Part shown: positions 951 to 33,740 of the stretch, piece by piece | Position numbering within the stretch: the stretch's first letter is position 1 | How the letters are laid out: the number at the start of each line of letters is the position of its first letter | Virus record (IMG/VR): IMGVR_UViG_3300021960_000228 | Coordinates: 1-36,491 of that record | From: a virus | DNA: 36,491 nucleotides | Direction: 5' to 3' (one strand) | Translations under genes and position numbers: made by a program | Notes under the pieces: generated by a model | What the model was told of the DNA's origin: nothing | Databases searched by the model: none | The model's input: only the letters and a program-made list of their open reading frames with translations

Positions 951-3900
951 TTATGCTGCTACTGTTGAAGTAAACGTTACTACTACATTTACATCGTCTG
1001 TGACAGAGCCTACCTTTCTGATTTTTATTCTAACTTGAAAAGTTTCAAACTCAGGCTCATAGACAGTACCAAGTACTGTGTAAGCCGAAATAGCTCTAGT
1101 AGTGGTTATTGTTGCCCAAGTTGATTCTGACCAATTGGCCGCAGGGTCAACGTCACCACTAACCTTCTCCCACCAGATCTCATAGCCGAGCCCTACATTA
1201 AGTGCTCTATCCCCCACAGGAAGCCAGTCGTCTGAGCCCACATTTGTAGGGGCAGTACACCCACTAAAACCTGTACCCGCATAACACAAGCCTGAGTTTA
1301 AAAAGTTAAGAGTACCCCCTGCAGCTTTCGGGGTAGTCTCTGCAGGAGTGCTCCATAGAAGACTAGTAAAACTTAGTTGGGCGGTGCCGGAAGGCGCCGA
1401 AGTGTCCGCTATTGCTACAGTACCAAAGCCATGTATAGGGGAACCCCCTGTTGAAGCCGCATACACAGCAGGAACAAAACTTTCTCCAGAATCCGCTCCA
1501 TCAGAGACTATATCAATAGTGTAGTCAGCTGAGCCTCCCACTAATGTAACAGCTTGTCTAGCAGAAATTGGCGCTACGGAGCCAACACTAGGGTTTGTGA
1601 AGTCCGCTGTAGTAATTCCTACGGGAGAATCAAAAGATAAGTACATAGTATTAACATTAGTATTATTGGTTTCTAGGTGTATAGTAAGAGTATCGCCCTC
1701 TGCAGGAGTACTGCTACTAATAGTAAAGTTATATGTTTGTCCGGTTACAGTAACTGTAGGGCTAGTAGCTACAACACTTCCTAATGTAGCAGCGTCATAA
1801 ATTTTCACGGAAAAAGTTTCATTAGAACTTTCAAAATCTACTCCTGCCGTATAAGTAGCACTAGTGCCTTGCCCTGATCCATTTAGTACAATTGTTTCTC
1901 TAGAACTGCCATTTGGAGGTGTGGGACTAAAATCAGCATCGTTGGTAGTGACGTGGGACCACTCTAGATATACTGTACCGCTAGTAGGACCACTGACTGC
2001 GAAATTCACTGTATCCCCTTCCTTAATACTAGTAGAAGAAGGAGTCACTGAGTAGGTACTAGAGGCCCCTGCTACAGTGGCTGAAATATTGTGAAGAGTG
2101 GGTTGATTCAACTGAAATAGGTCGTACTCTCCAGTTGACTCGTCTATTTTAAGCGTCAAACCGTTTTGTGTCTTCGTACTTAGGCCACCTGCTGAGGTAC
2201 CCCCAACAACTGAGTAAACCCCTGAATTAGTAACGTCGGCACCACTAAAGAATAATTCCCATTCTCCTGAAGCATTCGGGAAGTTGGTTTCAAAAACTCT
2301 ACCACCAAAGTCAGTATTAATAGTTTGGCCTGGATTTGTTATAATAGCTCCTATATTGCCCGAACCTTGCTTGACTCTAATAATAGACAGAGAGTCTGTT
2401 AAGATGATATTAGTCTCCCCTATATTTCTAACATTCACTTCAACAACATCCCCTCCCTGGCTCCAAGTAGTCGGTACCGGATATAGATAAAAGGGATTAG
2501 TAGTATAGGCAGGAGTAGTCACATCAACTCCATTTAGCTTATAGTTGTACTCCGGAGACAATACAGTACTAGACCGGGTCTCTACTTCTATAGATGAGGA
2601 GTCTGACGAACTGGCTGTGTACTGCGGGCTCAGTCCTTCGCCATTATACACAATAGAATAATCCGTAGCTATGATGCCTACATTTTGTCCTTTGTCTCCA
2701 GCAGGGCCCTTCCCGTTTATATACAGTTGTAAAGTATAAGTCTTAGGAGAGGTACTAGAGGCATTGACTTTTCCTATAATAGCATCTTCTTCAATATCTG
2801 GCTTAAACTCTTGAGAGAAAGCAAATACACCCGTTTGAGTCCTCAAAAAGGCAGTATTGACTTGTAGTTGAGTATCACTTTCAATAGATACAATAGTACG
2901 GTATTCTGAGGTTTGTACTTCAGTGCCTGCACTTGGGTCAGACGAAATTTTTATTAAATCTCCTATTTTAAACTCAGAGGTAAATACGGTGCCAACCCCT
3001 GTAGCTATAAAACTTCCTTCTACAGTAGAAACAGAACCGGAAGTAGCTACTAACCCATTATTCGTGTAGCCTAGAGGGACTATATAGGATCTATTTAATA
3101 ATATATTATTAGTTCCCCTTACAACACTATCAGTATAAATTTGAATAGCTTTCCAAGGGTGAGGAGTAACTTCGTCCGCACCAGATGAGTCAAAATACAA
3201 ATAAGCTTCTTCATCAAGACCCAAACCACTAAAATCTTCTTGGGTAGCTTCCGTTCCGGCAGTGTCTGGGAACGAGAAACTCGTCCCTGCTGGAGTAGAG
3301 AAAGTATAGGCGTTTCCGGCTAGTCTAACTATAGAGTCACCAGGATCTATAGAACTAGTAGAAAAACTATCCCCTGAAAGAACTCCGCCAACGGCTATGG
3401 AATTAATTCTTCTATTGCCCGCGGCGCTTAAGGATACGAATCTTCTTACGATAGTCCAAGGAGATTTTACTCCTATGTCATTTATAGTTCTAGCTCTTAC
3501 AGTATAGATACCTTCCGAAACCCCTGATATCGACAAAGAATTAGAAGCCCCAGAAACTTTTTCTGTTTTAAAGTCGCTAAGTCCTGACGCCTCTTGGAAG
3601 TCGTGTTGGATCTCATACATAGATAAGAACCTATAGGGTATCTGTGTAGTAACCCCGGTGCTGTCCGTAAAACTTTCTATAGGACTAGTCCAAGAAACTT
3701 CTACTTTTTGACCCGTCGCACTTCCAAATTCGGCATTTCTAGCTTCTGGGAACATCTCTATAGATATGTTTGTCGGAGAAGGAACATCGTCTAGTCTTCC
3801 TGAAATAGGAATGTAGTCAGTAGTGTATACAGGAGGGTCTACGTCTATCTCGTCAAATTTTGTAGGATAATAATTAGAAGCTACTATAGAGTACTTATTA

Positions 3901-9640: not shown

Positions 9641-12600
9641 TTAACTCCTATAAGCGCAGGGTATAGATACGGTTACAGTTTTTCCTGCATCAGCAGAAGA
9701 GCATCTAATTAGGCCTTGTCTTGGGAACACGGAGACTTCTCCTGCATTAAGCGTCCCATTATCTTCGAGCCCCACTACAGTAGCCTCTACACCATCAATT
9801 TTAATACTAAAACCCTCTCTTACAGAGGTTTGCAAGTATAAGAAGTTGGAGTTAAAAGCCCCGTTGGAAGATCCACTAGTTCCTACCTTTACAAAGAAAT
9901 CCGTTTGCGATTTTTTAAATACTTGTCCGTGCATATGACCCCAATTGCCGTTCCCGTGAGTTGCAGCGCTCGTATTAACAATACTTACCGCGGTTGCAAA
10001 ACTGGTAAATACAGCCGGCATTAGATTCTCGCTGCTACTCGCTAAAGAGGTATATATTAGTTTATCACGAAGATAATACTTAACAGTGGTACCAACTCTT
10101 TCTATATTAAAAGGACAATACCTATCATTTATAACGTCCCTGTTACCCAAGATTGTGTCCGTTGAATTCGTGTTGCTGAGAAGCACGCTGGTTAAGCTCG
10201 TATTAACAAGGGGTAGGTTGTTATTGCTTCGGGGATTAAACAGAGATATTACACTATAGTACCGGTCACCTGCCGGTTGAGTGAATACTACACTTCCAGA
10301 TTCTATTATCTGAATAGTCATGGGGGTAGATTGTGCGCCTTCATTCATCATATCAGAAATATTTGCAGATTGATAAGAGTATGTATTAGTTCCCTCAACA
10401 ACCGCAGATTGCATGTTAATAGTGGTAGAACTAGAATAATTTGTTATTAAACTATCAAAAAGTTTTCCAGGGATCACTTTGAATCCATAAAGTATCTCCG
10501 CTTCCTCTAGCACTCCCTGAGCTGGTGAAGCACCATCAGTGTAACTAGCAGCGTTTACTAACCCGAAAGCGGTTTCTATTTTCCAGTTGTTATTACCATC
10601 GTCTTGATTTCTGTGGTCAAGCAAGCCCCATTCTCTGGCATAAGGAGTACCACTAGAGGACGTCACATATTGCCCTTCAGGATTTAAAAGATGAGTCTCT
10701 AAATTAAAATCACCTGTTGTAGCTTCTGAAGAATTATACCTAGCACTAACATGAACTATTGGTGCACTAGACATCGTGCTGCTCACAGTGAACCCTAGGC
10801 GTGAGCGAAATTCAGGATACTCTCCATGGCTCCAACCTGAATTCATTCTCCTTGAATCAATCTTGCCGCCGGAACCTTGCTTATTATAATAAGCAGTTGT
10901 GGAACGTGTATCTTCAATTACAAATGCGGATCCCCAAGCGGAGGCGCTAACATCACTGTTGTTGATTGGACTAATTCCGGAAGATTCAACATTGTCATAA
11001 TAAGTAACGGGAAGAAGCTCTGAAGGAGTTGAGGAAGCAATAGTACCGTTTGTAACCTCCGTAACTATCTCATTATCCCACATAGAGAGAGTAGGGCTAT
11101 AAGACCTAACAGACGTTGCCGAGTCTGCTACGATTCCATCTACTACATGAGCGGAAATGGCCTCTCCTGAAACAAAAGATTGAGTACTGCCTGCATCATC
11201 AAAAGAAATAGTAGCCCCGCCAATTAAAGCATCCGTCGTGCCATGAGTAGACTTCAAAGTAAGAGGGTCTGCGTCACTAGTTCTAAGTCTCCAGATAGAG
11301 CCGGTCCATACATATCTCTGCCAAACGTCGCCCGCCATCTTAGAAGCAGCAGATACGCCTTCAATAGTCCCATCAGATATGGGAAATACATAAAACTTGT
11401 CACTGCCACAAGTAATTAATAGTCCTCTACCAATATACTGAGTCTGGTGACCGTTTTCCGCAGTCCAGACATTAATAGCCATGTTGTCAAGCCTGTTTGT
11501 AGTGAACGTAAATTTATACACATTGGTTGGTGAACTAAAAGTACCACCACTATCTGAACCAGTTTTTATAATACAGTCATTACCGTCATCATCGACATGC
11601 TCTGTATGTCCCAGCCAATATGAGTAGTTAAATTGAACATTCCACTCCCGAAAACTGTTTCGAAGGCTGCCAGCAGGGGTGAAAATAGCCGGGCCATAAG
11701 GGCCGAAGTATTGAGCGAGGTAGCCGACGCTAAAGTTTTCAGGAAAAGTATCGCCTGTCAATAATTCAGTATAGCCTGCACCTGCGGGCCCAATTTGAGT
11801 CCCATGTGTTAGTAATACAGGAGCATTTCTATTAGTCCCCCCTGAAAGGTAATTACTCTGATTAGTGTTTAAATGAGCAATATACCAATGGCTCTGAGTT
11901 CTGGTACAACCTACCATATTCACCCAGTTTCTTCTAACCCAGGGAATTAGGAAGTCATCCATCGTAACACGTGTAGGTACTTGGTTGCCGTCGGAGAAAG
12001 CATACCCGATTCTATTCGAAGTACCCCCAGAGCTACCTGCCCATAAGATTGGAATAGCTCCTGAGTCCTGCATTAATTGTGTAGTGTCGCTAGTACTGTC
12101 CCACCATACACCGCTCACTGTAGCATAATGATATATGCCAGTGTAGAGCATAATAGAATTAGGGTTAGTTTCGTAAAGCACTAGTAATTTATTATCAGTA
12201 TTTTTATCAGCGACCATAGACAGTACTGCGGCCCATTTTCCTTCAATAGTTGCTTGAGTAAATGTAACCCCTCCAGTACTAGTACTATCATAACCGACCC
12301 AGGTTGCTCCATTATCTGTCGATTTTGCAAGAGCTCCGTTCATCATAGCCCAAGCAGTTCTATGAGTCCCGCCTACAGCGAGACCTAAACAGACTACATA
12401 AGCATTGTTAGCTACCGTAGCCGCTACATCTGATATAGAAGACAAGTCTAAGTTACTAACAGTTGGAGATGCTGAATAAGGACTGGCTATTTTCCATAGT
12501 CCGGTATCCTGACAAGCGAGCCAAAGAGTATCAGAGATTTCATCATACGCGTGGCCCCCTATATTAGTAGCGGTAAAAGCAGGATACTGTAGAATGTTAA

Positions 12601-14101
12601 CAGCACTATTCTCTCCGGTCTCTAAATTATAGAAATGTACATTGTCTTCGATCATATCATAGAGCTTTAGAGGACTACCTGGAACTACCCACCTTCCGTA
12701 GTTTTCCATGGCGCCGCTTCCTTGCTTAAGAATGGCTCGCCCAGAAGTCGCAAGGTCGCCCGTATGGTCTCCCCAGTCAGAATAAGTTTTTACAGTTTGT
12801 ACATTAGCCTCCGCAATGCTATGAAGAACTTGTATTCTTGGTACCAAGGTATTATTTACATACCCAGTTACATATCTTTTTCTCAACGAGTATTCGGCCG
12901 TTCCTACCCCTCCAGTTACTCCACCTATATCTATGGACCATAGTTCAGGAAAAACAGTAGTAGAGTATGGGGTGGTGTCTAAAGTAAGTGTTGCATCCGT
13001 ATTCGGTATTTCTCCAGCACTGAAGAAGGGAACGGTAGCACCAGACACTTTCCCATAATATTGTTGAGTCTTATTAGTATTAGAACCAATCATACGAGTT
13101 ACCCAGGCTGCATCGAACTGACCACTTCCTACGACAGATATAGAGCTAACGAAGTCTCCTACATTAGTATCAGTGGTTTGTACCTCGGCGGAGTTTAGGA
13201 AAACAATACCATCCCAACGGTGCCCAGAAAAATTAGCGTTGGTCTCCAACTGACCCCAGTATTGTATACTTGGGTGGCCACCAGTATTGGGCTTACCCGC
13301 GACATAAGTAGTATTGGGCCTACGACTAGCAAGAGGTACTTTAAAAGGAGAATACTTAGTATCATTTGTATAGATGCTAGTGTTACTCATATTTGCGCTG
13401 CTGCTGCCTGTGTAATAAGCAAGAGATTGTACTGGTGTGGGGTTAGGTACCCCCGACATTAACCAAGTAAGAGCAGACATTTGGTCATATGATAAAGTAG
13501 TTGATGAGGTGGGGAAAGTGAATTCTATTTTATAGACCACAACAAGAATTTCTGTAGTAGATTGCGTGATAGCTGGTGTAAAAGAAGCAGCCGTTCTTGG
13601 TTTTGGTCTACTTGCGATATTGTTCTTGGAGCCGGCTTTATATGTAGGTCTCGATTGTGTCCAACCTATAGTATGAATATCACGAGTTCCTGACACGGGG
13701 GGAAGAAGTTGTTGAGTGAGCTTAAGAGTAGGTGTAGTAGTCTGACCATTTCCTTCCACTACTGCAAAGGGGGTTCCTTGAATTTTCTGAAACTGCCAAA
13801 ACTTACCCGGCTGAGATCTTACAGTACTACTAGGGGCAGCTTCATAGTGATCATTAGCATACATATAATGAGTAAAATAACTGGCTCCAGCAGATTGGTA
13901 ATAAGCTATATAGGGGTCCTGGGTTGATTCAGCTGTTGCGGCCGCGCCAGTGCGAACAGTTTGTATACTGAGAGACATGGCGCTAATAGCGCTAGTGAAG
14001 TTAGCGTCGTAAATTATATTCTCTATCCAGTCAGACTCATACAGTTCTTCGCCCGTATTAGCGTCTTTTTTTGTTACTTTCACAAAGCCTTTCATTTTCA
14101 T
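9641..14101 (-). CDS. Large beta-rich tail fibre-like protein, copy 2 of a tandem pair
   Basis: 1486 residues, Ser/Thr/Gly/Asn-rich with no membrane segment. A paralogue of the 1487-residue product at 15837-20300. The N-terminal ~35 residues ('MKMKGFVKVTKKDANTGEEL') have a form seen at the start of phage fibre proteins. An Asp-box (S-x-D-x-G-x-T-W) in 'KSTDNGATW' near residue 595 suggests a beta-propeller or sialidase-like fold. 'WTGSIWRLRTSDADPLTLK' near 930-950 and the last ~75 residues ('FSIKIDGVEATVV', 'DAGKTVTVSIPCAY') are strongly conserved with the paralogue. A segment near 1330-1370 ('IERVGTTVKYYLRDKLIYTS') looks like a concanavalin/laminin-G type sandwich. It lies between two M-like genes with gaps of 3 bases and 1 base. 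A receptor-binding or decorating role is inferred; no catalytic residues can be assigned. Confidence 0.85.
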   Translation of the reverse strand: MKMKGFVKVTKKDANTGEELYESDWIENIIYDANFTSAISAMSLSIQTVRTGAAATAESTQDPYIAYYQSAGASYFTHYMYANDHYEAAPSSTVRSQPGKFWQFQKIQGTPFAVVEGNGQTTTPTLKLTQQLLPPVSGTRDIHTIGWTQSRPTYKAGSKNNIASRPKPRTAASFTPAITQSTTEILVVVYKIEFTFPTSSTTLSYDQMSALTWLMSGVPNPTPVQSLAYYTGSSSANMSNTSIYTNDTKYSPFKVPLASRRPNTTYVAGKPNTGGHPSIQYWGQLETNANFSGHRWDGIVFLNSAEVQTTDTNVGDFVSSISVVGSGQFDAAWVTRMIGSNTNKTQQYYGKVSGATVPFFSAGEIPNTDATLTLDTTPYSTTVFPELWSIDIGGVTGGVGTAEYSLRKRYVTGYVNNTLVPRIQVLHSIAEANVQTVKTYSDWGDHTGDLATSGRAILKQGSGAMENYGRWVVPGSPLKLYDMIEDNVHFYNLETGENSAVNILQYPAFTATNIGGHAYDEISDTLWLACQDTGLWKIASPYSASPTVSNLDLSSISDVAATVANNAYVVCLGLAVGGTHRTAWAMMNGALAKSTDNGATWVGYDSTSTGGVTFTQATIEGKWAAVLSMVADKNTDNKLLVLYETNPNSIMLYTGIYHYATVSGVWWDSTSDTTQLMQDSGAIPILWAGSSGGTSNRIGYAFSDGNQVPTRVTMDDFLIPWVRRNWVNMVGCTRTQSHWYIAHLNTNQSNYLSGGTNRNAPVLLTHGTQIGPAGAGYTELLTGDTFPENFSVGYLAQYFGPYGPAIFTPAGSLRNSFREWNVQFNYSYWLGHTEHVDDDGNDCIIKTGSDSGGTFSSPTNVYKFTFTTNRLDNMAINVWTAENGHQTQYIGRGLLITCGSDKFYVFPISDGTIEGVSAASKMAGDVWQRYVWTGSIWRLRTSDADPLTLKSTHGTTDALIGGATISFDDAGSTQSFVSGEAISAHVVDGIVADSATSVRSYSPTLSMWDNEIVTEVTNGTIASSTPSELLPVTYYDNVESSGISPINNSDVSASAWGSAFVIEDTRSTTAYYNKQGSGGKIDSRRMNSGWSHGEYPEFRSRLGFTVSSTMSSAPIVHVSARYNSSEATTGDFNLETHLLNPEGQYVTSSSGTPYAREWGLLDHRNQDDGNNNWKIETAFGLVNAASYTDGASPAQGVLEEAEILYGFKVIPGKLFDSLITNYSSSTTINMQSAVVEGTNTYSYQSANISDMMNEGAQSTPMTIQIIESGSVVFTQPAGDRYYSVISLFNPRSNNNLPLVNTSLTSVLLSNTNSTDTILGNRDVINDRYCPFNIERVGTTVKYYLRDKLIYTSLASSSENLMPAVFTSFATAVSIVNTSAATHGNGNWGHMHGQVFKKSQTDFFVKVGTSGSSNGAFNSNFLYLQTSVREGFSIKIDGVEATVVGLEDNGTLNAGEVSVFPRQGLIRCSSADAGKTVTVSIPCAYRS

Positions 14102-14104
14102 AGA

Positions 14105-15835
14105 TTATGTCCTAGTTATATTATTAATTTGCGCGGAAAAGGTAGTTTTACCTTGTAATTGCACTGTTTCTGTTTGAGCTGTAGCGATAGTATCTAATCG
14201 TACAACATTGTTTATTTCTGCTTCTACCAAGTTAGTTCCTGATAGAGTTAAGGATTCGGTCTGTTTAAGGAGCTTGGGCTCGTTTCTTGTAATGTCTGTT
14301 TCAGTTAGAGCCTTTTGATCAACAGTACCAAAAATAATTAGGGACTCGTTAGCTGCAACAGGTACAGATCGAAGACGAATTGCATCATTGATCCTGGCTG
14401 TAAAGTCTGTATCGGCCCTCAGAGTAATGCTTTCTGGTAGTATACTCGGAAGCAGCGTTCCTGATGTCTCTACAACTAAGTCTACCGTGTCTAAAATAGG
14501 CCCCGTATAGCCTGTCGTACGAATGTTTAATACCCAGTATTCAATAGACTCCGGAGAAGGAACAGCTTTTTCAAGTTGAAAGCTTCCTGTAGAGCTAATA
14601 TCATTTCCTACTGGTAAGAAGGTTCCCTGTACAAGTACAAAGTCTACCCCTGCCGTAGCTCCCTCTATAGTCCAATAAATTTGTTCAATAGGAAGAAAAG
14701 TACCCTTAAAGTAAGCAGTAATTATAAATTCTGGGCTACTGTTTGGTCCTATTGAGTAAGAAGCTACTGGTTGATATAGGCTGTTTGTCAGTTGTCCCCC
14801 GGCGGCTAGAAGAACAGTAAGATTCAAAGTATCAACTATAGGGCCAGCTACACTATCTTTTCTTAGTTGTAAAACACGAACTTGATCCGAAAGTATATCA
14901 GCACCATTTACAGAAAAATTACCCGTACTAGACGCGAAATTCCCTGTTAAGTTAATAACTCCAGTAGAAGGAGTGACTACTCCATTTCCGTTTTCTAAAG
15001 ACCAATACAAGTCATTGACGGGCTCATAATTTAATACTTCGACATATATAGTTGTTGAAGTATTTTTTAGAATAAACACGTCGGTCAAATCCGCGCCAAC
15101 ATTATCTACTAAGCTAAACGTCTCTGGACCTCTGGAGGTGTCTTGTACCGTTACTAGTATTTGGTCTAATGTCGGCCCACCAATAGAACCCGATCTAACT
15201 CGTAATGTAAATTGCTCGGTCGCTTCTGTTGTTACGTCAGCCAAAGTACTTATCTGAAAACTGCCTGAGGCCAGAGTTAAGGTTCCCGAAGTAGTAAAAG
15301 ACCCTGACACTTCTACAAAGTCTGCTAAGGACGCTCCGTCATCGAGAGTCCAATACAATATTTCTGGTCCTCTCTCCAAGCTACTTATATTTACTACTTT
15401 CGTCTGGCCCTCATTCATAGAGAAGTTAGGGTTATTTATATTAACTCCGGAAGTTCCCGATACTAACTCAAATACTCTTACGAACTGGGCAGTTACCGAA
15501 CCGACATCTGCGTTGAAATACGTAGTAGTATAGTTATCGCAATATACTACAATAGTTTTCTCACCTGATATTTCATTACTGTCTGGAATAGTGAAATCGA
15601 AAGTTCTATACTTAGACCTATCAGCAAAAAACCCGGTTATCGCAGTAATTTCTTCAATAGGTCTATTATTAAAAGTTAAATTATAAGTTTCCTCTCTACC
15701 ATCTGTTCCTAGAGATAATCTGTTTTCGTAGCCGTCACCAAAAGACATAACAGAATATAAAGGTTTTATATTCTTTTTTATGTTTCTGTCCGGCACCACA
15801 AGGGTCGAAGTTAAGTCTAGAAATCCTACTGTCAT
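14105..15835 (-). CDS. Extended gpM-like minor tail protein, copy 2
   Basis: 576 residues. Residues 1-127 are gpM-like ('VVPDRNIKKNIKPLYSVMSFGDGYENRLS', 'ITGFFADRSKYRTFDFTIPDSNEISG') and closely match the N-terminus of the 584-residue paralogue. Three beta-sandwich repeats of ~100 residues follow, resembling Calx-beta domains ('ILYWTLDDGASLADF', 'LYWSLENGNGVV', 'IYWTIEGATAGVDF'). The last ~110 residues carry three copies of a short motif of type F/V-x-A-x-I-N-[ND]-x-x-R ('FTARINDAIRL', 'VEAEINNVVRL', 'FSAQINNITRT'). The final codons ACT AGG A contain the ribosome binding site of the next gene. Likely a tail ring subunit with outward extensions (inference). The spacing to both neighbours is 1-3 bases, consistent with co-production with the large beta-rich protein after it. 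Confidence 0.85.
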   Translation of the reverse strand: MTVGFLDLTSTLVVPDRNIKKNIKPLYSVMSFGDGYENRLSLGTDGREETYNLTFNNRPIEEITAITGFFADRSKYRTFDFTIPDSNEISGEKTIVVYCDNYTTTYFNADVGSVTAQFVRVFELVSGTSGVNINNPNFSMNEGQTKVVNISSLERGPEILYWTLDDGASLADFVEVSGSFTTSGTLTLASGSFQISTLADVTTEATEQFTLRVRSGSIGGPTLDQILVTVQDTSRGPETFSLVDNVGADLTDVFILKNTSTTIYVEVLNYEPVNDLYWSLENGNGVVTPSTGVINLTGNFASSTGNFSVNGADILSDQVRVLQLRKDSVAGPIVDTLNLTVLLAAGGQLTNSLYQPVASYSIGPNSSPEFIITAYFKGTFLPIEQIYWTIEGATAGVDFVLVQGTFLPVGNDISSTGSFQLEKAVPSPESIEYWVLNIRTTGYTGPILDTVDLVVETSGTLLPSILPESITLRADTDFTARINDAIRLRSVPVAANESLIIFGTVDQKALTETDITRNEPKLLKQTESLTLSGTNLVEAEINNVVRLDTIATAQTETVQLQGKTTFSAQINNITRT

Positions 15836-15836
15836 G

Positions 15837-18800
15837 TTATTGCTCTAAGTACGCGCAGGGAATATTTACAGTAACTGTTTTACCCGCGTCTGCTGCTGCG
15901 CAGCGAATAAGGCCTGATCTAGGGTAAACGGATACTTGTCCCGCGACTAGAGTCTGTGCGTCATCTAATTCTACTACATCCGCCTCTACACCATCGAGTT
16001 TTATTGAGAAAGCTTGTCTATTGGCTACTTGAAGAAAAAGAAAATCAGGGTTAAAAATTCCGTTGCCTGATCCAGAAGTGCCCACTTGTACCCAGTAATC
16101 ATTACCCGCATCTATTTGTATGTCATGTATGGTCGAACTAGAAGAATATCGATCTTTTAATTCACCAATACCACTATAAAACCTTTGAAACCTAAAGTCA
16201 ACAAGCACTAAGGATTCAGTGCTAGAGACGAGAGAAGTATAAACTGTCTGTCCCCTGAACTCGTAAGAAAGAGTGGTACCAACTCTTTTTATTTTGAGAC
16301 CACAAGGAGTTAATAAAGGAAACGTTCTACCAAACTGCATTTGAGTAAGCACACCACTTTTGAACATCGAAGAGCCGACAGTGCCTGTATTAAGTTCATG
16401 ATCTCTAATTGTGCCAAAATTACCGGAAGCCGCTTGTTGTGAGACACTTCCTACAGTCTCTCCCGATATAGTATGTTTAACAACCCCTGCTTCAATAATT
16501 TCTATAACTATAGGGCAACTACTAAGGGAGTAATACAAAGTGTCTCCCGTATCTCCCGTAGTTTGAAAACTGAAGGTAGTAGGTTCTCCAGCTTTACCTA
16601 ATAAAGTCGCGTAGTTATCAGCCATTCTAAACTTAAACCCATAGTTTATATCTGAAAAGCTTGAGCAGTTAGTGTTTGAAGTAGAGGGGCTAAGACCGTC
16701 TGTAAATGTAGTTGCGTCTGCTAAACCATAAGCGTATTCAATATTATATCCTGTAGTAGGGGGAGATACTGAAGGGTTAGTAGTATTAAAAAACAAGAAG
16801 TCCGACGGCTGAACAGTGGTATTTGCAGCCTTTGGCTCAAGAATAGAAGAAGTTAGAAGAAAATCCCCCGAAAAGGCATCAGTAGTTAACATTCTATTTG
16901 AAAGATATCTTCCGGAAACAGGCCCATTATACGATACCCCAGTTTGACTGGTGTTGAGCCTAAATTTAGTGTAGTACGGGTACGATGAAGACTGAAAACC
17001 TCCCTGATTATAAAGGAAGCCAGTATTGATTGGTACTCCCCCCACAGAATCTGAACTGATACCATAAGTACCAAGAAAACGATTATTAAAAAAACTACCT
17101 GTATTAAAGGTGCCTGCAGTGGGTGTGGGGTTATTAACGTTGTGCTGCTCTTCATTATAACTCTCCGCGGGGTAACACCAAGGAACCAACTTTCCAGGAT
17201 TATTTTGAGCTATTACTCCTCCTGTTACTTCTTTAACAAATTCATTTGGGTAAGTACTCTTACCACTGTAGTATGTAGTAAGTCCTACGGCAAGGTCATT
17301 CATAATCCCATCGCATACGACGGCAGATATACTCTCTCCTGAAGTATAAGAGGAGGACCCAAGATCGTCATCAAAAGAAATAGTGGCCCCGTCAATTAGA
17401 GGTTCAGTCCCAGAGTGAGTAGGTTTTAAAGTTAGAGGGTCTGCGTCACTAGTTCTTAGTCTCCAGATTGACCCTGTCCATACGTATCTTTCATAAATCT
17501 CACTGATCATGCTATTGGCTGGATCCCACCCATAATATTGATCCCCTACCTGAGAATACTCGTCGCCATTAAACCTCAACCCTTTTCCAATATACCAATG
17601 GTAGTAGTAGAGTTCTTCAGAGAGTTGAGCAATTAATCCGGTAGAAAATCTAAATAACCAGAACCCTCGGGCTGGTGCAGCCGGGGCCGCACCGGTTACA
17701 GTCTCGTTGTAAGAGGTACCTACTAGTAGTACATCATTATTATCGTCATCTACAGTCTCATAAGGTACCGACCAAGGGTCAGTTTTAAGAGCTGGGCTCT
17801 GTGTAGGAAACCAGTTAAAAGCACTTGTTCTTAACGTTCCATAAGCCGATTGCCCGCCAGATCTGCCCGATGATACATATTTTATTTCTGGATTTGAAAA
17901 CTGACCAAAAACACTTGGGGAAGCTCCGAGCTGTCTTTCAAAAAAAAGTTGCCGAGGCACATAGCCCGCAGGAACCGACTGAGTGCCGTCTTCAGCGTAA
18001 CTTACTATCCACCAAGTAGACTGGGCCTTACCCACTCCGTAAGTAAACCTAAAAAGTCTTCTCATCAGGCTCATATCATGAGTATCTGCGAGTGCATCAT
18101 TAAACGTAGTGTACTCATAACGTATAGCAAAACTATAAAATGTAGAACTAGCGCCGGGGCTTGCTTTCTCATAAAATAAATTAAAACTAGAACTAGTTGG
18201 GGATAAATTAGTACAATCATTAAGACTGCTCCACCAAGTGGCTCCCGTTGTAACTAGCCTAGTCTTGTTCGGAAAATTGATACTATATAAGTTGGCCGCT
18301 GTTCCTGTAGGGTCATCCGCATAAAATATCAATAGTCTACCGTCTGTATTTTTATCTGCTTTTAGACCAATAGTAACGCTCCATTGAGCTTCTATATTGG
18401 TCTGTGTAAAGGACACGCCTCCTGTACTCGTGCTATCGTAAGCTGACCACGTACTCCCATTATCAGTAGACTTAACTAAAGCACCTTCGATCATAGCCCA
18501 AACAGTTCTAAAAGAGCCTAAATTTATTCCCAGATCTAAAGTATACGCTTTATTTTCAGTGGTGGTGGTAACATTCGAAAGACCTGCTACGTTATGGTTA
18601 GTTATACTAGGAGACCCTAAAGGAGTCGATACAGACCAGATTCCCGTGTCTGTGCAAGAAATCCAAAAAGTATCAGATACTTCATCGTAGTCATACCCTG
18701 AAATATTAGAAGGAGAGAACGAGGGGTAGTTAATTACATTAATTCTAATAATTTCCTCATTCAACCAGCTTAACAATACTATTTCTTTTTGGGTTACATT

Positions 18801-20300
18801 ATAAGTATATCTATCATCCCCTGGAAACATTCTTATAGGCATATTACCTTCCCAATTTTTATTTATCAAGAAATCAGTGCTGAGGCCCGATAACCCAATC
18901 TTATTGGAGTTGCTAGTGTCATAATCTTCATAGCCATCCAAACGACTAAGCGGACCTCTCCACTTAAGGATGTTGGTACCGTTGATTGTCACTTCATTAT
19001 GCTGGGTTGCTGCGGATTTTTCAGTACTGCCGTTCGCGCCATTTATGCTTTTTATATTGTGGCTCATTAGCTTAGGGGTGAAGGTATTTCCATCAAAGCT
19101 AGAAATGTAGCGTTTCATAAAAGAGTACTCAGCGGTACCCACTCCGCCAGTAGAGCCCCCAAAGTCTATTTTCCAAAACTCATGGTACTTAGGGTCATAT
19201 AAAGAGGTATCCAAGGTAATAGTCGCCGAAGTAGAGGGCAACTCGGTTACCAGGAAAAAAGGTACAGTAGGGCTATTGACTTTTCCATAATAATTTTGAG
19301 TCTTGTTTTCTCCTACGGATAATAGTCTTGCTGGATTATGTACTATACCTCCTGGACTAGTTTCGCCCGCTACAAAACCAGTTATATGGCCCTCATAACT
19401 AGCTCCTCCATATCCAATTGGAAGTTCGAGTTTATGAAAACCTAGTTGGTCCCACGCTCGGTAGTTCTCGTTATCTTGTCCAGAAAATTCCTGGTCGTTT
19501 TGAAAGGTTACAAATCCAAATGAGTTTGGTTTATTAGCAATGTCAGTACCAGTCCAGGAAAGTATTGGCTGGTTTCTTCTAGGGTAAAAATGACCTCCGG
19601 ACCACGTTTCCCAGTTTCTATAAGCACCTGTTCTGCCGGCCCAAAGTGATACTGGATAGCCACCAGATACTGAAGTACTATAATTGAAGCCTCCAGGGAC
19701 ATTGAGATGGTTATTTCCGGTATTCGTAATAGTCATATTGTATGTTGAGGACGTCTGTATAGCACTCAGCCACTCTGTTGCCCAGTCATTTCTTTGGCCT
19801 AATTGAATTACAACTGTATATTGAATTATAGCGAATTGACTGGAGGACTGTACAACAGGAGTAGGGTTACTGGCTACGGTTATAAACGGTAGAAACGCAG
19901 TAGTAGAGACCGAATCATAGCTAAGACCAACACTATGAATATTCCTAATCGCGGCCTGAGTCGGTGGATCCAGCTTTTTAACAATTCTCATAGTTACGGA
20001 ATTATAGTCTGCGTCTTGAGTAAGGGCAGTCGCACCGACCAAATTCACCGTAAAATACCACCTACCAGGGTAGGCAAAAGAGTTTTTATCAATACTTGAG
20101 ATATAAGAATCACCACATACTATATTATACACGAACTTTTTAGAAGTATATGACAATCCGCCTATGCTACCCCAATAAAAAGGGGACTGCATGAAAAGAT
20201 TTGAGTTCAGCACAGCATTATGCCAAGTTTTTTCCTCGTGCTCTAGCTCGCCAGTTTCTACATTGTAGAGAGAAATATCCACGTAACCTTTTATATTCAT
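15837..20300 (-). CDS. Large beta-rich tail fibre-like protein, copy 1 of a tandem pair
   Basis: 1487 residues, a full-length paralogue of the 1486-residue product at 9641-14101. It shares the N-terminal form ('MNIKGYVDISLYNVETGELE'), the Asp-box 'KSTDNGSTW' near residue 610, the 'WTGSIWRLRTSDADPLTLK' block near 945-960, a 'IKRVGTTLSYEFRGQTVYTS' segment near 1340, and the last ~75 residues ('FSIKLDGVEADVV', 'DAGKTVTVNIPCAY'). Much of the N-terminal half and the middle between blocks is more diverged. No signal peptide, membrane segment or obvious catalytic motif. It starts with ATG 3 bases after the upstream M-like gene, whose last codons supply the AGGA site. Position between the tape measure and gpL places it in the tail tip module. 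Fibre, collar or adhesin function is inference. Confidence 0.85.
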   Translation of the reverse strand: MNIKGYVDISLYNVETGELEHEEKTWHNAVLNSNLFMQSPFYWGSIGGLSYTSKKFVYNIVCGDSYISSIDKNSFAYPGRWYFTVNLVGATALTQDADYNSVTMRIVKKLDPPTQAAIRNIHSVGLSYDSVSTTAFLPFITVASNPTPVVQSSSQFAIIQYTVVIQLGQRNDWATEWLSAIQTSSTYNMTITNTGNNHLNVPGGFNYSTSVSGGYPVSLWAGRTGAYRNWETWSGGHFYPRRNQPILSWTGTDIANKPNSFGFVTFQNDQEFSGQDNENYRAWDQLGFHKLELPIGYGGASYEGHITGFVAGETSPGGIVHNPARLLSVGENKTQNYYGKVNSPTVPFFLVTELPSTSATITLDTSLYDPKYHEFWKIDFGGSTGGVGTAEYSFMKRYISSFDGNTFTPKLMSHNIKSINGANGSTEKSAATQHNEVTINGTNILKWRGPLSRLDGYEDYDTSNSNKIGLSGLSTDFLINKNWEGNMPIRMFPGDDRYTYNVTQKEIVLLSWLNEEIIRINVINYPSFSPSNISGYDYDEVSDTFWISCTDTGIWSVSTPLGSPSITNHNVAGLSNVTTTTENKAYTLDLGINLGSFRTVWAMIEGALVKSTDNGSTWSAYDSTSTGGVSFTQTNIEAQWSVTIGLKADKNTDGRLLIFYADDPTGTAANLYSINFPNKTRLVTTGATWWSSLNDCTNLSPTSSSFNLFYEKASPGASSTFYSFAIRYEYTTFNDALADTHDMSLMRRLFRFTYGVGKAQSTWWIVSYAEDGTQSVPAGYVPRQLFFERQLGASPSVFGQFSNPEIKYVSSGRSGGQSAYGTLRTSAFNWFPTQSPALKTDPWSVPYETVDDDNNDVLLVGTSYNETVTGAAPAAPARGFWLFRFSTGLIAQLSEELYYYHWYIGKGLRFNGDEYSQVGDQYYGWDPANSMISEIYERYVWTGSIWRLRTSDADPLTLKPTHSGTEPLIDGATISFDDDLGSSSYTSGESISAVVCDGIMNDLAVGLTTYYSGKSTYPNEFVKEVTGGVIAQNNPGKLVPWCYPAESYNEEQHNVNNPTPTAGTFNTGSFFNNRFLGTYGISSDSVGGVPINTGFLYNQGGFQSSSYPYYTKFRLNTSQTGVSYNGPVSGRYLSNRMLTTDAFSGDFLLTSSILEPKAANTTVQPSDFLFFNTTNPSVSPPTTGYNIEYAYGLADATTFTDGLSPSTSNTNCSSFSDINYGFKFRMADNYATLLGKAGEPTTFSFQTTGDTGDTLYYSLSSCPIVIEIIEAGVVKHTISGETVGSVSQQAASGNFGTIRDHELNTGTVGSSMFKSGVLTQMQFGRTFPLLTPCGLKIKRVGTTLSYEFRGQTVYTSLVSSTESLVLVDFRFQRFYSGIGELKDRYSSSSTIHDIQIDAGNDYWVQVGTSGSGNGIFNPDFLFLQVANRQAFSIKLDGVEADVVELDDAQTLVAGQVSVYPRSGLIRCAAADAGKTVTVNIPCAYLEQ

Positions 20301-20303
20301 TAA

Positions 20304-22058
20304 TTAATTCCTAGTTATAATTGATACAGATAGCGATTCTTGTATGCCTATTGATTGATTTGTAATATTCTCGTCAGAAAAGGGCCCCGCTATTATAGGA
20401 CGCAACCTTATATAGCCGCTTAGTAGAGAGGTTGACTCAAATTGACTTATTGACTGATTAGTAGTAGTATCCAGCCCTCCACTAAATATAAGTACAGTTT
20501 GTCTTTGTATATCTCCTGATAATAATGACGCAGCCTCGGATATCCCTATTGATTGATTTGTAATATTCTCGTCAGAAAAGGGCCCCGCTATTATAGGACT
20601 CAACCTTGTAGAGCCACTTAGTAGAGAGGTTGACTCAAATTGACTTATTGACTGATTAGTAGTAGTATCACTCTTTGCAAATATGCCAATCTCACTGTTT
20701 GCAATAAAAATAAGAGAGGAGGCTACTATAGGCCCAGAAACACTGTCTGTTCTAATGTTTATAGTAAAAGACTTTGCATCTTCAGTGGCTACTCCTACTA
20801 GTTGGAAAGTCCCTGTATTTATAGAAGAAGTGCCCGTAGGAGTAAAACTTCCGGCTACAAAATCAAAGTCTACTCCTTGACTTGCGCCTTCTATAGTCCA
20901 ATATAAAAGCTCTACAGGTACTCCCACTCCTGTACAATACATATCAAGAACATACTCAGGGCTAGATAAGTCGGACAGCCTAAAAAATAGTTGCTCTATA
21001 CCGTTTGAGTCTACTAACCTTCTTCCTATAAAAGGAAAAGTTAAAATAGTTATAGTATCTAATACTGGCCCTGAAATACTATTTCTTCGTAATGTTATAA
21101 TATCCGTTTTTGGCTCTGTTATAACAGTGGAGGTAAGACTAAGATTTGCCAAACTCTCTGCGAAAGTTCCCACTAGTTTTAGTGATCCTAAGCTAGGAAA
21201 GTAACTACCAGAGGACGTATCAAAGTTCCAATATAAAAGCTCACTATTATCGAAGTTAGTAGTCTTAGCAGCAATCTCAACAGTAGACTGTTTAAGAGTT
21301 GTTACTTCTGTAATAGGAATCCCATTATTATTCGTCCAATTAAACGCGGGAGGAGTTCTAGATGTATCGATTACCTGTACTTGTTTACTTGCTATTACTG
21401 GCCCTCCAGTTGAGCCAGTTCTGATACTAAGTGTGTATGCTTCTCCGCCTTCTGTTGTAGTATCATTTAAAGTTTCTATACTAAAGGAACCTGAAGCAGT
21501 AGATATTGAGCCCCCTGTTGAAAATGAACCACTTACTGCAGTAAAATCTGCGGTTGTAGCCCCGTCTAAAGTCCAATATAAAGTCTCTGCCCCTCTTTGA
21601 GACGTAGAGACATTTATTACTTCAGAAACTCCTTCATCTAAAATGATACTGCTGTTTAATATAGTGGCGGAGGATAAAGCGCTGTCCTCTTCGAAAACTC
21701 TTATAAAGGTGCAGGATAGCGAGCCTATAGTATCTGTTACATATGTTCTAGAGTATCCTTCACAGTATACTATTAAATCTTTTTCGCCTGATATTTCGTT
21801 ACTGTCGGGGACTGTAAAAACAAAGTTTTTATACTTCTCCCTCTCATTAATAAACCCTGTAATTCTTTCTATCTCACCTATAGATCTATTAGTAAAAGTT
21901 AGTTGATAGGTTTCTTTAAAACTATTTGTTCCTACAGAGATCCTACTTTCATACCCCTCTCCATGAGACACTAAAGAGTAAATAGGTTCTACTGACTTTT
22001 TAAAGTTTTTATCGGGTACTACACGAGTACTAAGTAAGTCTAAAAATCCTAGAGCCAT
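20304..22058 (-). CDS. Extended gpM-like minor tail protein, copy 1
   Basis: 584 residues. Residues 1-127 are gpM-like ('VVPDKNFKKSVEPIYSLVSHGEGYESRIS', 'FINEREKYKNFVFTVPDSNEISG'). Three Calx-beta-like repeats follow ('LYWTLDGATTADF', 'LYWNFDTSSGSYF', 'LYWTIEGASQGVDF') up to about residue 445. The C-terminal ~130 residues contain a 66-residue tandem unit ('TTNQSISQFESTSLLSG', then 'IIAGPFSDENITNQSIGI') present twice and encoded by nearly identical DNA. The start ATG overlaps the tape measure stop codon (TAATG), with GGAGGAGG immediately upstream, so translation should be coupled and strong. In lambda the gene after the tape measure is M, so this gene occupies the canonical M position but is more than four times longer. 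Confidence 0.85.
   Translation of the reverse strand: MALGFLDLLSTRVVPDKNFKKSVEPIYSLVSHGEGYESRISVGTNSFKETYQLTFTNRSIGEIERITGFINEREKYKNFVFTVPDSNEISGEKDLIVYCEGYSRTYVTDTIGSLSCTFIRVFEEDSALSSATILNSSIILDEGVSEVINVSTSQRGAETLYWTLDGATTADFTAVSGSFSTGGSISTASGSFSIETLNDTTTEGGEAYTLSIRTGSTGGPVIASKQVQVIDTSRTPPAFNWTNNNGIPITEVTTLKQSTVEIAAKTTNFDNSELLYWNFDTSSGSYFPSLGSLKLVGTFAESLANLSLTSTVITEPKTDIITLRRNSISGPVLDTITILTFPFIGRRLVDSNGIEQLFFRLSDLSSPEYVLDMYCTGVGVPVELLYWTIEGASQGVDFDFVAGSFTPTGTSSINTGTFQLVGVATEDAKSFTINIRTDSVSGPIVASSLIFIANSEIGIFAKSDTTTNQSISQFESTSLLSGSTRLSPIIAGPFSDENITNQSIGISEAASLLSGDIQRQTVLIFSGGLDTTTNQSISQFESTSLLSGYIRLRPIIAGPFSDENITNQSIGIQESLSVSIITRN
20347..20471. repeat. Direct repeat copy A (125 bp) inside extended M-like gene
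   Basis: This copy matches 20545-20669 over 125 bases with four mismatches, at an offset of 198 bases (exactly 66 codons, so the frame is kept). It encodes residues ~530-571 of the 584-residue protein. The high nucleotide identity compared with the diverged remainder of the gene family suggests a recent in-frame duplication. Confidence 0.9.
20545..20669. repeat. Direct repeat copy B (125 bp) inside extended M-like gene
   Basis: Partner of copy A at 20347-20471; it encodes residues ~464-505. The four differences are clustered within a 20-base stretch in the middle of the repeat, and the flanks on both sides are identical. Confidence 0.9.
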
Positions 22059-31358: not shown

Positions 31359-31378
31359 GGGGAGCCCGAAGGCTCCCC
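31359..31378 (-). terminator. C(UUCG)G hairpin after the capsid gene
   Basis: An 8-base-pair perfect stem (GGGGAGCC/GGCTCCCC) with a TTCG loop on the minus strand, an exceptionally stable tetraloop. After the stem comes ATACCTTTTTAGG, so the T-run starts 5 bases late. It probably acts as a partial terminator or as a 3' end/processing signal that keeps capsid mRNA more abundant than the connector genes. Confidence 0.75.
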
Positions 31379-31396: not shown

Positions 31397-32812
31397 TTAA
31401 TAAGACTTACCAACTACCTGACCGGCAGCTGCAAACATCCTATCGAAACCTCGACGCTGTGTAGCAACAATAACACGCTGCTGTTCAGCAACTTGATAGT
31501 CTTGCTCTACCGTGGCACCACGGAGGACAGGAACTACAAAGTTACGAGTGTTCAATGCGATACCCCAAGGAGCGCCATCAGCGGCCGCAGGGAACTCGTC
31601 ACAAACAAGTACGCGTGAACCGTATACTGAACCGACATCACCATTCAATTTAAGGGCGGTATCAGAACCAACTTGGTTAACGTCTGCAAAAGCAGGATCA
31701 TCAATCAACTTGTAGTAAGCATCCAAACCAATGATATAGACAACATCACGAGCCATACGACCGTACTTACCCATATCTTGACGCATCTTTAACAGATCAT
31801 CAGCAGCAATAGCGTAGTCAGCAGGTGAAGGCTGAGTCATTGAAGTATACTTGGAATCGGCATTAGCTAATTGAACCAATCCTGTATAACCACTAGTAAT
31901 CAAGTCATAAGTAGCTAACTTACCTAGCAATAAGGAATGCTCGATTGCACGTGCGTGTGAACGAATCATTGCTTCACGAATGTAAGGAAGTACTGGCATA
32001 ATAGCATCTTCTTCGGTTTCGTTAGCGATGAAAGACTTAGACACCAACTTCTGAACCGTGAGGATTTTATTTCCAAGCTGTACACCAGCTTCGTCACCAA
32101 AGGTCGCTGACCGTTGGTCAAGGTTACCTTTTGGTGCAGTTGCGTCACTAGAACCAGGAGTAGAGCCTGTGGCTAAGAACTCAGCATAGCCAGCATCTGG
32201 CATGAGAGGAACAACCATTGAAGCGGCGTTCATTTGAATTTTGCGGAACAAAGGATCAATAACTAGTTCCAGCTCAATATCACGCTCTAGTGCAGTTGAA
32301 ACCTGAGTTTCAAAGTTCGCTGAAGTTGAAGTAGGAACAGCAATACCTGCAGCGCCATTTACTTTCTCCATAAGCTCGCGACCCATCTTAGTGTCCCAAC
32401 CTTTCTTGGTAATAACACCTAAGAGGTGAGCTTCAACAAGCTCATTTTCAGAAAAGTCAGATTTTGCGTTACGGTCAGCGAATACTCGCTTGCTTTCACG
32501 AATCTTCTCAATTTCTGCAGATTTTTCCTTTAGTTCATTTTGGTATTCGGCAGTAATCGCTGCAAGATCAGCGTCTTTTGCGCTCATTTTTGCTTCGACG
32601 TCAGCCATTAAACGTTCTGTACCACTGGTTACAGCGGTTACAATCCGAGCTTCTTCTTCAGACTTCTGAACTTCGGCTTCTTCGGCAGCTTTTTGTTCTG
32701 CTTCCAATTTCGTTCGCTCTTCTGTCTTGCGCTCAGCTTCTTTCATTGCCATTGCAGTTGCGGTCTTTTCGACAGCAGCAGCCACAATCGCATCGATATC
32801 GATATCACTCAT
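31397..32812 (-). CDS. Major capsid protein precursor from internal in-frame start
   Basis: The ATG at 32810-32812 (Met206 of the fusion, 'MSDIDIDAIVAA') is preceded by AGGAG at 32819-32823 with a 6-base spacer. This would produce 471 residues: delta domain plus capsid. The position is exactly at the boundary between the linker and the coiled-coil delta domain. An assembling head needs over 400 capsid subunits and few protease copies, so a nested start makes functional sense, much as Nu3 is nested in C in lambda. Expression is inferred from the sequence, not shown. Confidence 0.75.
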   Translation of the reverse strand: MSDIDIDAIVAAAVEKTATAMAMKEAERKTEERTKLEAEQKAAEEAEVQKSEEEARIVTAVTSGTERLMADVEAKMSAKDADLAAITAEYQNELKEKSAEIEKIRESKRVFADRNAKSDFSENELVEAHLLGVITKKGWDTKMGRELMEKVNGAAGIAVPTSTSANFETQVSTALERDIELELVIDPLFRKIQMNAASMVVPLMPDAGYAEFLATGSTPGSSDATAPKGNLDQRSATFGDEAGVQLGNKILTVQKLVSKSFIANETEEDAIMPVLPYIREAMIRSHARAIEHSLLLGKLATYDLITSGYTGLVQLANADSKYTSMTQPSPADYAIAADDLLKMRQDMGKYGRMARDVVYIIGLDAYYKLIDDPAFADVNQVGSDTALKLNGDVGSVYGSRVLVCDEFPAAADGAPWGIALNTRNFVVPVLRGATVEQDYQVAEQQRVIVATQRRGFDRMFAAAGQVVGKSY

Positions 32813-33427
32813 AGTTTTCTCCTGTGCTTCGACTCTACTAGAGTCTTTGGGCATTGATTCGTTTACGGAATCTTGATTTGTTTCAGTTTCCTGAAGTTTA
32901 TTAGATTCTGTTAAGGAATCTTGGGGGTTGAAAGATTTCTTGAATTCTTCATACTCAGACTCTGAGTTAAAAGATTTAGCAAGAGAAAAGGTAGCAGCTT
33001 GGTTAGCAGGAACCGAAACTACGGAAACCTCCAATAATTCTGCGTCCTTAATCTTATATCCATCGGTTTCGGTCATATACTCCGCATCCTTGACTCGAAA
33101 CCCGACTGAAAAAGCTCCAAGGACGCCTTCTTTAATTAATTCGCCTACGTGGCCTGCTGATTTAGCAATTTTTGCTTTTAACTGAAGACCATTGTCGTTA
33201 GTTTCTAGGGCAATTGCTCTACCAATCGGCTGATTGTAGTCATGATTAAAAAGAATAACTGGATTGTTTAAATAGTTTTGAAGACCGCCAGCTTTTGTCC
33301 AAGCCTCTGTCTCAATAATATCTCCAACTCGGTCAGTACCATTAGTACTAGCCATACCCGTAATGTGGAGATCATTTCCATCATCATAGGCTTTAAAGGT
33401 GGAGCCAATATGAAAAATTTTATTCAC
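31397..33427 (-). CDS. Fused prohead protease and HK97-type major capsid protein
   Basis: 676 residues. Residues ~1-150 are an HK97-type serine prohead protease: His62 in 'LFNHDYNQPIG', Ser107 in 'LGAFSVGF', and 'LLEVSVVSVPANQAA' at 131-145, so the catalytic pair looks intact. Residues ~150-205 are a polar linker. Residues ~210-312 are a charged coiled-coil delta (scaffold) domain, and ~313-676 the capsid fold ('RVFADRNAKSDFSENEL', 'PLFRKIQMNAASMVVPLMP', 'ERGFDRMF'-like end). In HK97 these are separate genes. A second start inside the frame (32812) would yield the capsid part alone. The start is GTG at 33427 with AGGAG 7 bases upstream, overlapping the preceding gene by 8 bases. Confidence 0.9.
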   Translation of the reverse strand: MNKIFHIGSTFKAYDDGNDLHITGMASTNGTDRVGDIIETEAWTKAGGLQNYLNNPVILFNHDYNQPIGRAIALETNDNGLQLKAKIAKSAGHVGELIKEGVLGAFSVGFRVKDAEYMTETDGYKIKDAELLEVSVVSVPANQAATFSLAKSFNSESEYEEFKKSFNPQDSLTESNKLQETETNQDSVNESMPKDSSRVEAQEKTMSDIDIDAIVAAAVEKTATAMAMKEAERKTEERTKLEAEQKAAEEAEVQKSEEEARIVTAVTSGTERLMADVEAKMSAKDADLAAITAEYQNELKEKSAEIEKIRESKRVFADRNAKSDFSENELVEAHLLGVITKKGWDTKMGRELMEKVNGAAGIAVPTSTSANFETQVSTALERDIELELVIDPLFRKIQMNAASMVVPLMPDAGYAEFLATGSTPGSSDATAPKGNLDQRSATFGDEAGVQLGNKILTVQKLVSKSFIANETEEDAIMPVLPYIREAMIRSHARAIEHSLLLGKLATYDLITSGYTGLVQLANADSKYTSMTQPSPADYAIAADDLLKMRQDMGKYGRMARDVVYIIGLDAYYKLIDDPAFADVNQVGSDTALKLNGDVGSVYGSRVLVCDEFPAAADGAPWGIALNTRNFVVPVLRGATVEQDYQVAEQQRVIVATQRRGFDRMFAAAGQVVGKSY
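32819..32823 (-). promoter_or_regulatory. Internal ribosome binding site for the capsid precursor
   Basis: AGGAG within the coding frame of the protease-capsid fusion, six bases before an ATG. The codons here encode Gln-Glu-Lys, so there is no strong protein-level reason for the motif. Confidence 0.75.
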
Positions 33428-33740
33428 TTGATTCTCCTGTTTTCACTGCTTGCCTCAACCTTTCAAGAGGGCTAAGCTGTTCTTGAGCCTCAACTGGCTC
33501 AACTTGCACAGGAGTTTCCTGTACTTTTTTAGCTGGTAAAGGTTTATCTTTACCAATTAAATTCCATTTAGATTTATTTACTCTACGAGCTGTATAAATA
33601 AAATTTTTATACTCACTACTGCCTACTAATTCTTTGTAGAGAGCTTGATTTCCGGAAGTAGTCCAATCTCTTTTACTATATACCTTCCCTTCTCGAATAA
33701 AAAAATCTACAATCTCTTCCATTTTTTCTTTAAGATTCAT
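33420..33740 (-). CDS. Small protein of unknown function between portal and protease
   Basis: 106 residues, not recognised. The N-terminal ~65 residues are mixed helical and charged ('MNLKEKMEEIVDFFIREGKVYSKRDW', 'YKELVGSSEYKNFIYTARRVNKSKWNLIG'), compatible with a small winged-helix-like or helical fold. The C-terminal ~40 residues are Pro/Glu/Gln-rich and probably disordered ('VQETPVQVEPVEAQEQ'). It overlaps the end of the portal gene by 11 bases and the start of the protease-capsid fusion by 8, so it belongs to the head operon. The AAGGA site is about 10 bases before the ATG. Confidence 0.8.
   Translation of the reverse strand: MNLKEKMEEIVDFFIREGKVYSKRDWTTSGNQALYKELVGSSEYKNFIYTARRVNKSKWNLIGKDKPLPAKKVQETPVQVEPVEAQEQLSPLERLRQAVKTGESSE

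Follow-up and report, generated by a model that had tools for sequence, protein, structure and literature searches.

A single gene of a marine T5-like phage, on the minus strand of a 36.5-kb virus record, joins a prohead protease to a major capsid protein in one reading frame. (The window, below, is the whole stretch of 36,491 nucleotides that was analysed.) Heads require hundreds of copies of capsid protein, and the question raised by this locus is whether such a gene makes only the fusion or also a free capsid precursor, and in what proportion. A preliminary description of the window had proposed two products from one gene, a little fusion and much free capsid precursor, the latter initiated at a nested start where the scaffolding (delta) domain begins. 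The parts of the gene are as follows.

31397..33427, minus strand: fused prohead protease / delta scaffold / major capsid gene, a single ORF of 676 aa with GTG start at 33427 and stop at 31397
32978..33364, minus strand: S78 (HK97-type) prohead protease domain, residues 22-150 (Peptidase_S78, PF04586, E=6e-17)
32813..32968, minus strand: disordered, fast-evolving linker, residues 154-205, always in frame (low pLDDT at 167-212)
32363..32812, minus strand: delta (scaffold) domain, residues 206 to ~355, mostly helical (matched to the T5-type precursor 8ho3 and mature pb8 5tjt)
31400..32362, minus strand: mature major capsid protein, HK97 fold of T5 pb8 type, residues ~356 to 676 (Foldseek 8ho3, E=1e-22)

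From N to C terminus the 676-aa frame thus reads S78 prohead protease, disordered linker, delta scaffold and T5-type capsid, and its PHROG matches are to both head maturation protease and major head protein. The PF04586 match spans the catalytic domain at 62.7 bits against a cut-off of 21, which places it in S78, and H62 and S107 of the protease are invariant in 77 sequences. A structure model built from 77 sequences (pLDDT 71), replacing a poor one built from 13 (pLDDT 46), has poor order across most of residues 141-212 and predicts helix for residues 211-311. Residues 234-668 of the fusion align with residues 26-448 of a T5-type head-protein precursor (8ho3, E=1e-67), and the alignment to the mature T5 chain 5tjt begins only at residue ~356; the N-terminal helical delta region is probably removed in the mature protein. 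With a VIA-align Z of 20.9 to the T5 pb8 fold (rmsd 4.2, 240 residues), the capsid part is a T5-type HK97-fold major capsid protein by both sequence and fold match.

The gene sits in a minus-strand T5-like head and tail module, in the order terminase, 127-aa ORF, portal, 106-aa ORF, fused gene, head completion, T5 p143-like protein, tail terminator and tail tube. T5-like phages have the same module order, but with protease and capsid as two genes. The tail module also encodes a 1,901-aa central tail fibre J-like protein (951-6656, minus strand). In addition, a tail gene pair encoding a ~580-aa minor tail protein and a ~1,487-aa protein, the latter with no PHROG match, occurs twice in tandem (9641-15835 and 15837-22058, minus strand); the copies are 45% and 30% identical, and the duplication is therefore old.

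About 250 metagenomic relatives were found, and the fused frame is open in every one that can be judged (one truncated sequence, L291, and two cut before the protease, L264 and L289, stand outside the fusion and start counts). From three scans of viral contigs, 202 fused sequences (counting the window) were aligned, of which 117 serve as representatives at below 95% nucleotide identity. Across these representatives the linker has changed length at least 38 times, giving 22 different lengths, and is free of stops in every case; its +1 frame has stops in 84 of 117 and its +2 frame in all 117. It is also the least conserved part of the protein, with dN/dS of 0.57 against 0.07 for the protease, the latter value indicating strong purifying selection on the protease domain. 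One uninterrupted frame conserved among relatives marks this as a protease-capsid fusion, in place of the separate protease and capsid genes of a Demerecviridae head module. The lack of a separate protease gene, part of the preliminary description, holds up: neither the window nor any of eight large related records (56-109 kb, all possibly incomplete) has an S78 match outside the fusion. As no stop divides the protease from the capsid part, any protease that is made must be fusion.

A fourth scan, centred on T5 capsids, collected 24 split and 50 fused loci. On the capsid tree, fused and split loci fall on opposite sides of one branch with 100/100 support (the direction is not rooted); the smaller protease tree does not resolve the two. 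One fused group (L250-L255) borders the fused/split division on the capsid tree, and its protease is nearest that of the T5-like split phages. A scan of a genome collection returned one distant partial match only. Isolated phages offered relatives of less than 60% identity, the best-covering being T5-like phages with two genes, so no cultured host for this fusion family was found.

Within the fused frame lies a second candidate start.

32819..32823, minus strand: internal Shine-Dalgarno (SD) AGGAG with spacer AAAACT, conserved against amino-acid change
32810..32812, minus strand: internal start codon ATG, codon 206, in frame, which would open a 471-aa free capsid precursor

The arrangement AGGAG-AAAACT-ATG (AGGAG at 32823-32819, spacer of 6, ATG at 32812-32810) is exactly the AGGAG-N6-ATG that had been claimed. 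Its placement at the beginning of the delta domain is likewise borne out by the alignments to the T5-type precursor and the mature T5 chain, and codon 206 corresponds to the position at which T5-like split phages begin their separate capsid gene. The single gene alone is weak evidence for a nested site, since random codons for the same peptide, drawn from the gene's own usage, put AGGAG-N5..7 at this ATG in 16% of cases.

The relatives are far more informative. The internal ATG is present in 202 of 202 aligned fused sequences, and a clear SD precedes it in all but two, which have a weak GGGGA. An SD-like motif occurs at the junction ATG in 114 of 117 representatives, compared with 12 of the 1,753 remaining in-frame ATGs of these genes. 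The two codons directly before the ATG vary freely while the ATG itself is constant, and 48 different tetrapeptides precede it. In each case an SD core lies 4-10 nt before the ATG; among the most remote fused relatives it is sometimes found in a different codon phase (TCAAGGAAATTAAAA-ATG in L265, for example). Conservation of the site as a by-product of the peptide QEKTM is ruled out by these 48 tetrapeptides and by the changes of phase.

Individual codons tell the same way. Codon 202 has undergone at least 21 amino-acid changes (among Q, M, T, K, R, E, L and others) and one third-base change, the fewest of the 447 columns with at least five amino-acid changes; the median over all columns is 26. 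The Glu codon 203 is GAG in 87% of sequences, with one third-base change, whereas 16 other conserved Glu columns mostly prefer GAA and show 3-61% GAG and 3-33 third-base changes. The preliminary description had named one outcome as counting against it, a site not conserved at synonymous positions among relatives; this was looked for, and the nested site clearly survived. Judged by these comparisons, nucleotides and not peptide are conserved at the nested site, indicating RNA-level selection for initiation; on that ground, use of the nested capsid start is almost certain.

The proportion of the two products is a separate matter, depending on the start of the fusion and its surroundings.

33434..33438, minus strand: Shine-Dalgarno AGGAG of the fusion start, 6 nt before GTG 33427; AGGAGAATCAA is kept
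31359..31378, minus strand: strong intrinsic-terminator-like hairpin, GGGGAGCC-TTCG-GGCTCCCC then a T run, directly after the fused gene and before the head-completion gene

The sequence AGGAGAATCAA is kept before the GTG or TTG fusion starts of close relatives. The upstream 106-aa gene, which has no assigned function, ends in an overlap with the fusion GTG (33420-33434, minus strand), an arrangement that suggests translational coupling. In the window the two starts have equal SD energy (-7.4) and differ only in being GTG for the fusion and ATG for the internal start. The fusion start codons of 115 relatives are divided among ATG (96), GTG (13) and TTG (6), and only 69 of the 115 have an internal SD that equals or exceeds the fusion SD in strength. 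Local mRNA folding gives the internal start no overall advantage either: its mean folding is the stronger of the two, and the site is not unusually free of structure. SD energies, start codons and local folding together revealed no consistent bias of dosage; the fusion start is not systematically weaker than the internal one. Because fusion SDs are often as strong and 96 of 115 fusion starts are ATG, the short product need not be the majority. A search for a promoter-like site that could give a separate short message found nothing above chance. The idea of one gene with two products thus keeps its nested, selected capsid start and loses the backing of start strength for little fusion and much capsid, a ratio that is still plausible.

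The explanation that best fits the whole, and that we hold with high though not complete confidence, is one message with two in-frame, co-terminal products, which co-assemble to bring in a tethered protease and are then cleaved. Initiation at GTG 33427 would yield protease-linker-delta-capsid; initiation at the internal AGGAG-ATG at 32812 would yield delta-capsid, an ordinary capsid precursor of 471 aa. The two would co-assemble through their common delta and capsid domains, so that each procapsid would hold a fraction of subunits with protease tethered inside, a share set by the two starts. After assembly the protease would cut linker and delta, leaving mature capsid from about residue 356. 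In HK97 and T5 biology the scaffolding domain is fused to the capsid N terminus and projects inside (PMC10275583). We infer the making of both products, co-assembly, tethered delivery and the order of cleavage, for co-assembly and cleavage from the domain identities together with HK97 and T5 biology. The sequence data supporting this account are the fused frame and its conservation, the nested SD-ATG, its selection at the level of RNA, the domain identities and the lack of a second S78 gene.

Other readings of the locus fare less well. The most serious accepts both products, made in similar amounts or with fusion in excess, and takes the nested start as a control of size or timing instead of an answer to a need for scarce protease. 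The start-site strengths without consistent preference and the stronger mean folding at the internal start agree with it, while the GTG fusion start in the window beside an ATG internal start of equal SD, the GTG or TTG fusion starts of 19 of 115 representatives, and the demand for capsid protein in hundreds of copies all point the other way; we regard it as possible but unlikely. That the internal SD-like sequence serves to slow elongating ribosomes between protease and delta for the sake of folding, with no initiation, is improbable. Its position at a domain border within a flexible linker would suit a pause, but a pause needs no ATG 5-10 nt downstream, and here it is the ATG that stays constant in 202 relatives as its two preceding codons drift; the coincidence with the capsid gene start of split relatives is a further point against pausing.

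A still weaker case can be made that all capsid subunits are full-length fusions and that the internal site is left over from the ribosome-binding site that the capsid gene had before the fusion. Inheritance is conceivable, as this junction carries an SD-ATG in the T5-like split relatives too. The linker around it, however, has fully turned over (dN/dS 0.57, 22 lengths) and the site remained, and independent actinophage fusions have a junction start too, so that a relic is very improbable. Least credible of all, and given practically no weight, is a fusion created by assembly or annotation. Known T5-like phages do have two genes, but the open fused frame in all judgeable sequences of some 250 relatives was found independently in other metagenomes; with about 250 independent contigs in agreement, an assembly artefact is rejected. 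Production of fusion and free precursor from nested starts, followed by co-assembly, is the reading that we retain.

We lean, with some reserve, toward a broader view, in which the nested capsid start would be a general and repeatedly evolved trait of phage protease-capsid fusions, and mixed heads would be widespread and hidden by single-protein annotation. If so, each fusion of a protease gene to a capsid gene leaves the capsid with a ribosome-binding site of its own, whether retained or reacquired. The arrangement suggests how a phage with such a fusion may avoid carrying protease on all its subunits, and it provides a genetically encoded route for loading a share of enzyme inside HK97-type heads. 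Database entries list a single protein for what are probably two products, and the short precursor is worth seeking in mass-spectrometry and cryo-EM studies of such phages. Protease dosage in head assembly becomes directly testable by changing one start codon.

Among known systems, T5-like phages (Demerecviridae) resemble the window in gene order, in a homologous S78 protease and in a capsid with an N-terminal delta; their protease and capsid are two genes, the stop lying 7-17 nt ahead of the capsid ATG, where the window has one frame with the capsid start nested in it. HK97 likewise has an S78 protease and a delta fused to the capsid N terminus, but its gp4 protease and gp5 capsid are separate genes. 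Genes annotated as "major capsid and protease fusion protein" are known from actinophages, namely RRH1, GMA5, Schiebs and the Arthrobacter phages of AM/AN/AU/AW (PMC5513430, PMC12760985). These join protease and capsid as the window does, though as fusions they are not detectably related to it, and the papers (PMC5513430, PMC12760985) do not mention a nested start. A junction SD-ATG is nevertheless present in 9 of 11 sampled (the exceptions are EpicDab and Idaho), and in 8 of those 9 it is the gene's best SD-bearing ATG. The strict motif occurs at 6 of 9 actinophage junctions against 3 of 115 other ATGs, a count that includes Gifsy-2; the junctions were chosen after the SD scan, which makes this result suggestive and not a clean test. 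The evidence for junction starts in these unrelated fusions is also sparser than in the main family. In RRH1 (L148, 4439-6424), GMA5 (L149, 568-2529), Coeur (L150, 421-2472) and Jeanie (L151, 571-2544) the junction SD-ATG is kept and the preceding peptide differs.

Gifsy-2 has a tripartite capsid gene, reportedly described by Effantin and colleagues in 2010. Protease, central domain and capsid share one gene there as in the window, but the protease is of ClpP type, the junction start is absent, and the best internal SD-ATG (codon 186) lies within the protease domain. Protease-capsid fusions are thus already published, and nested starts are known for protease-scaffold genes; a search of the open-access literature found no published nested capsid start in a protease-capsid fusion. 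In lambda C/Nu3 and herpesvirus UL26/UL26.5, a protease-scaffold fusion contains a nested, 3'-coterminal start that supplies excess scaffold. The window shares with lambda C/Nu3 an in-frame internal SD-ATG able to make a C-terminal product. It differs from both in what is nested, scaffold alone in those systems and delta with the full capsid domain here, and from UL26.5, which has its own transcript, in relying on a translational start.
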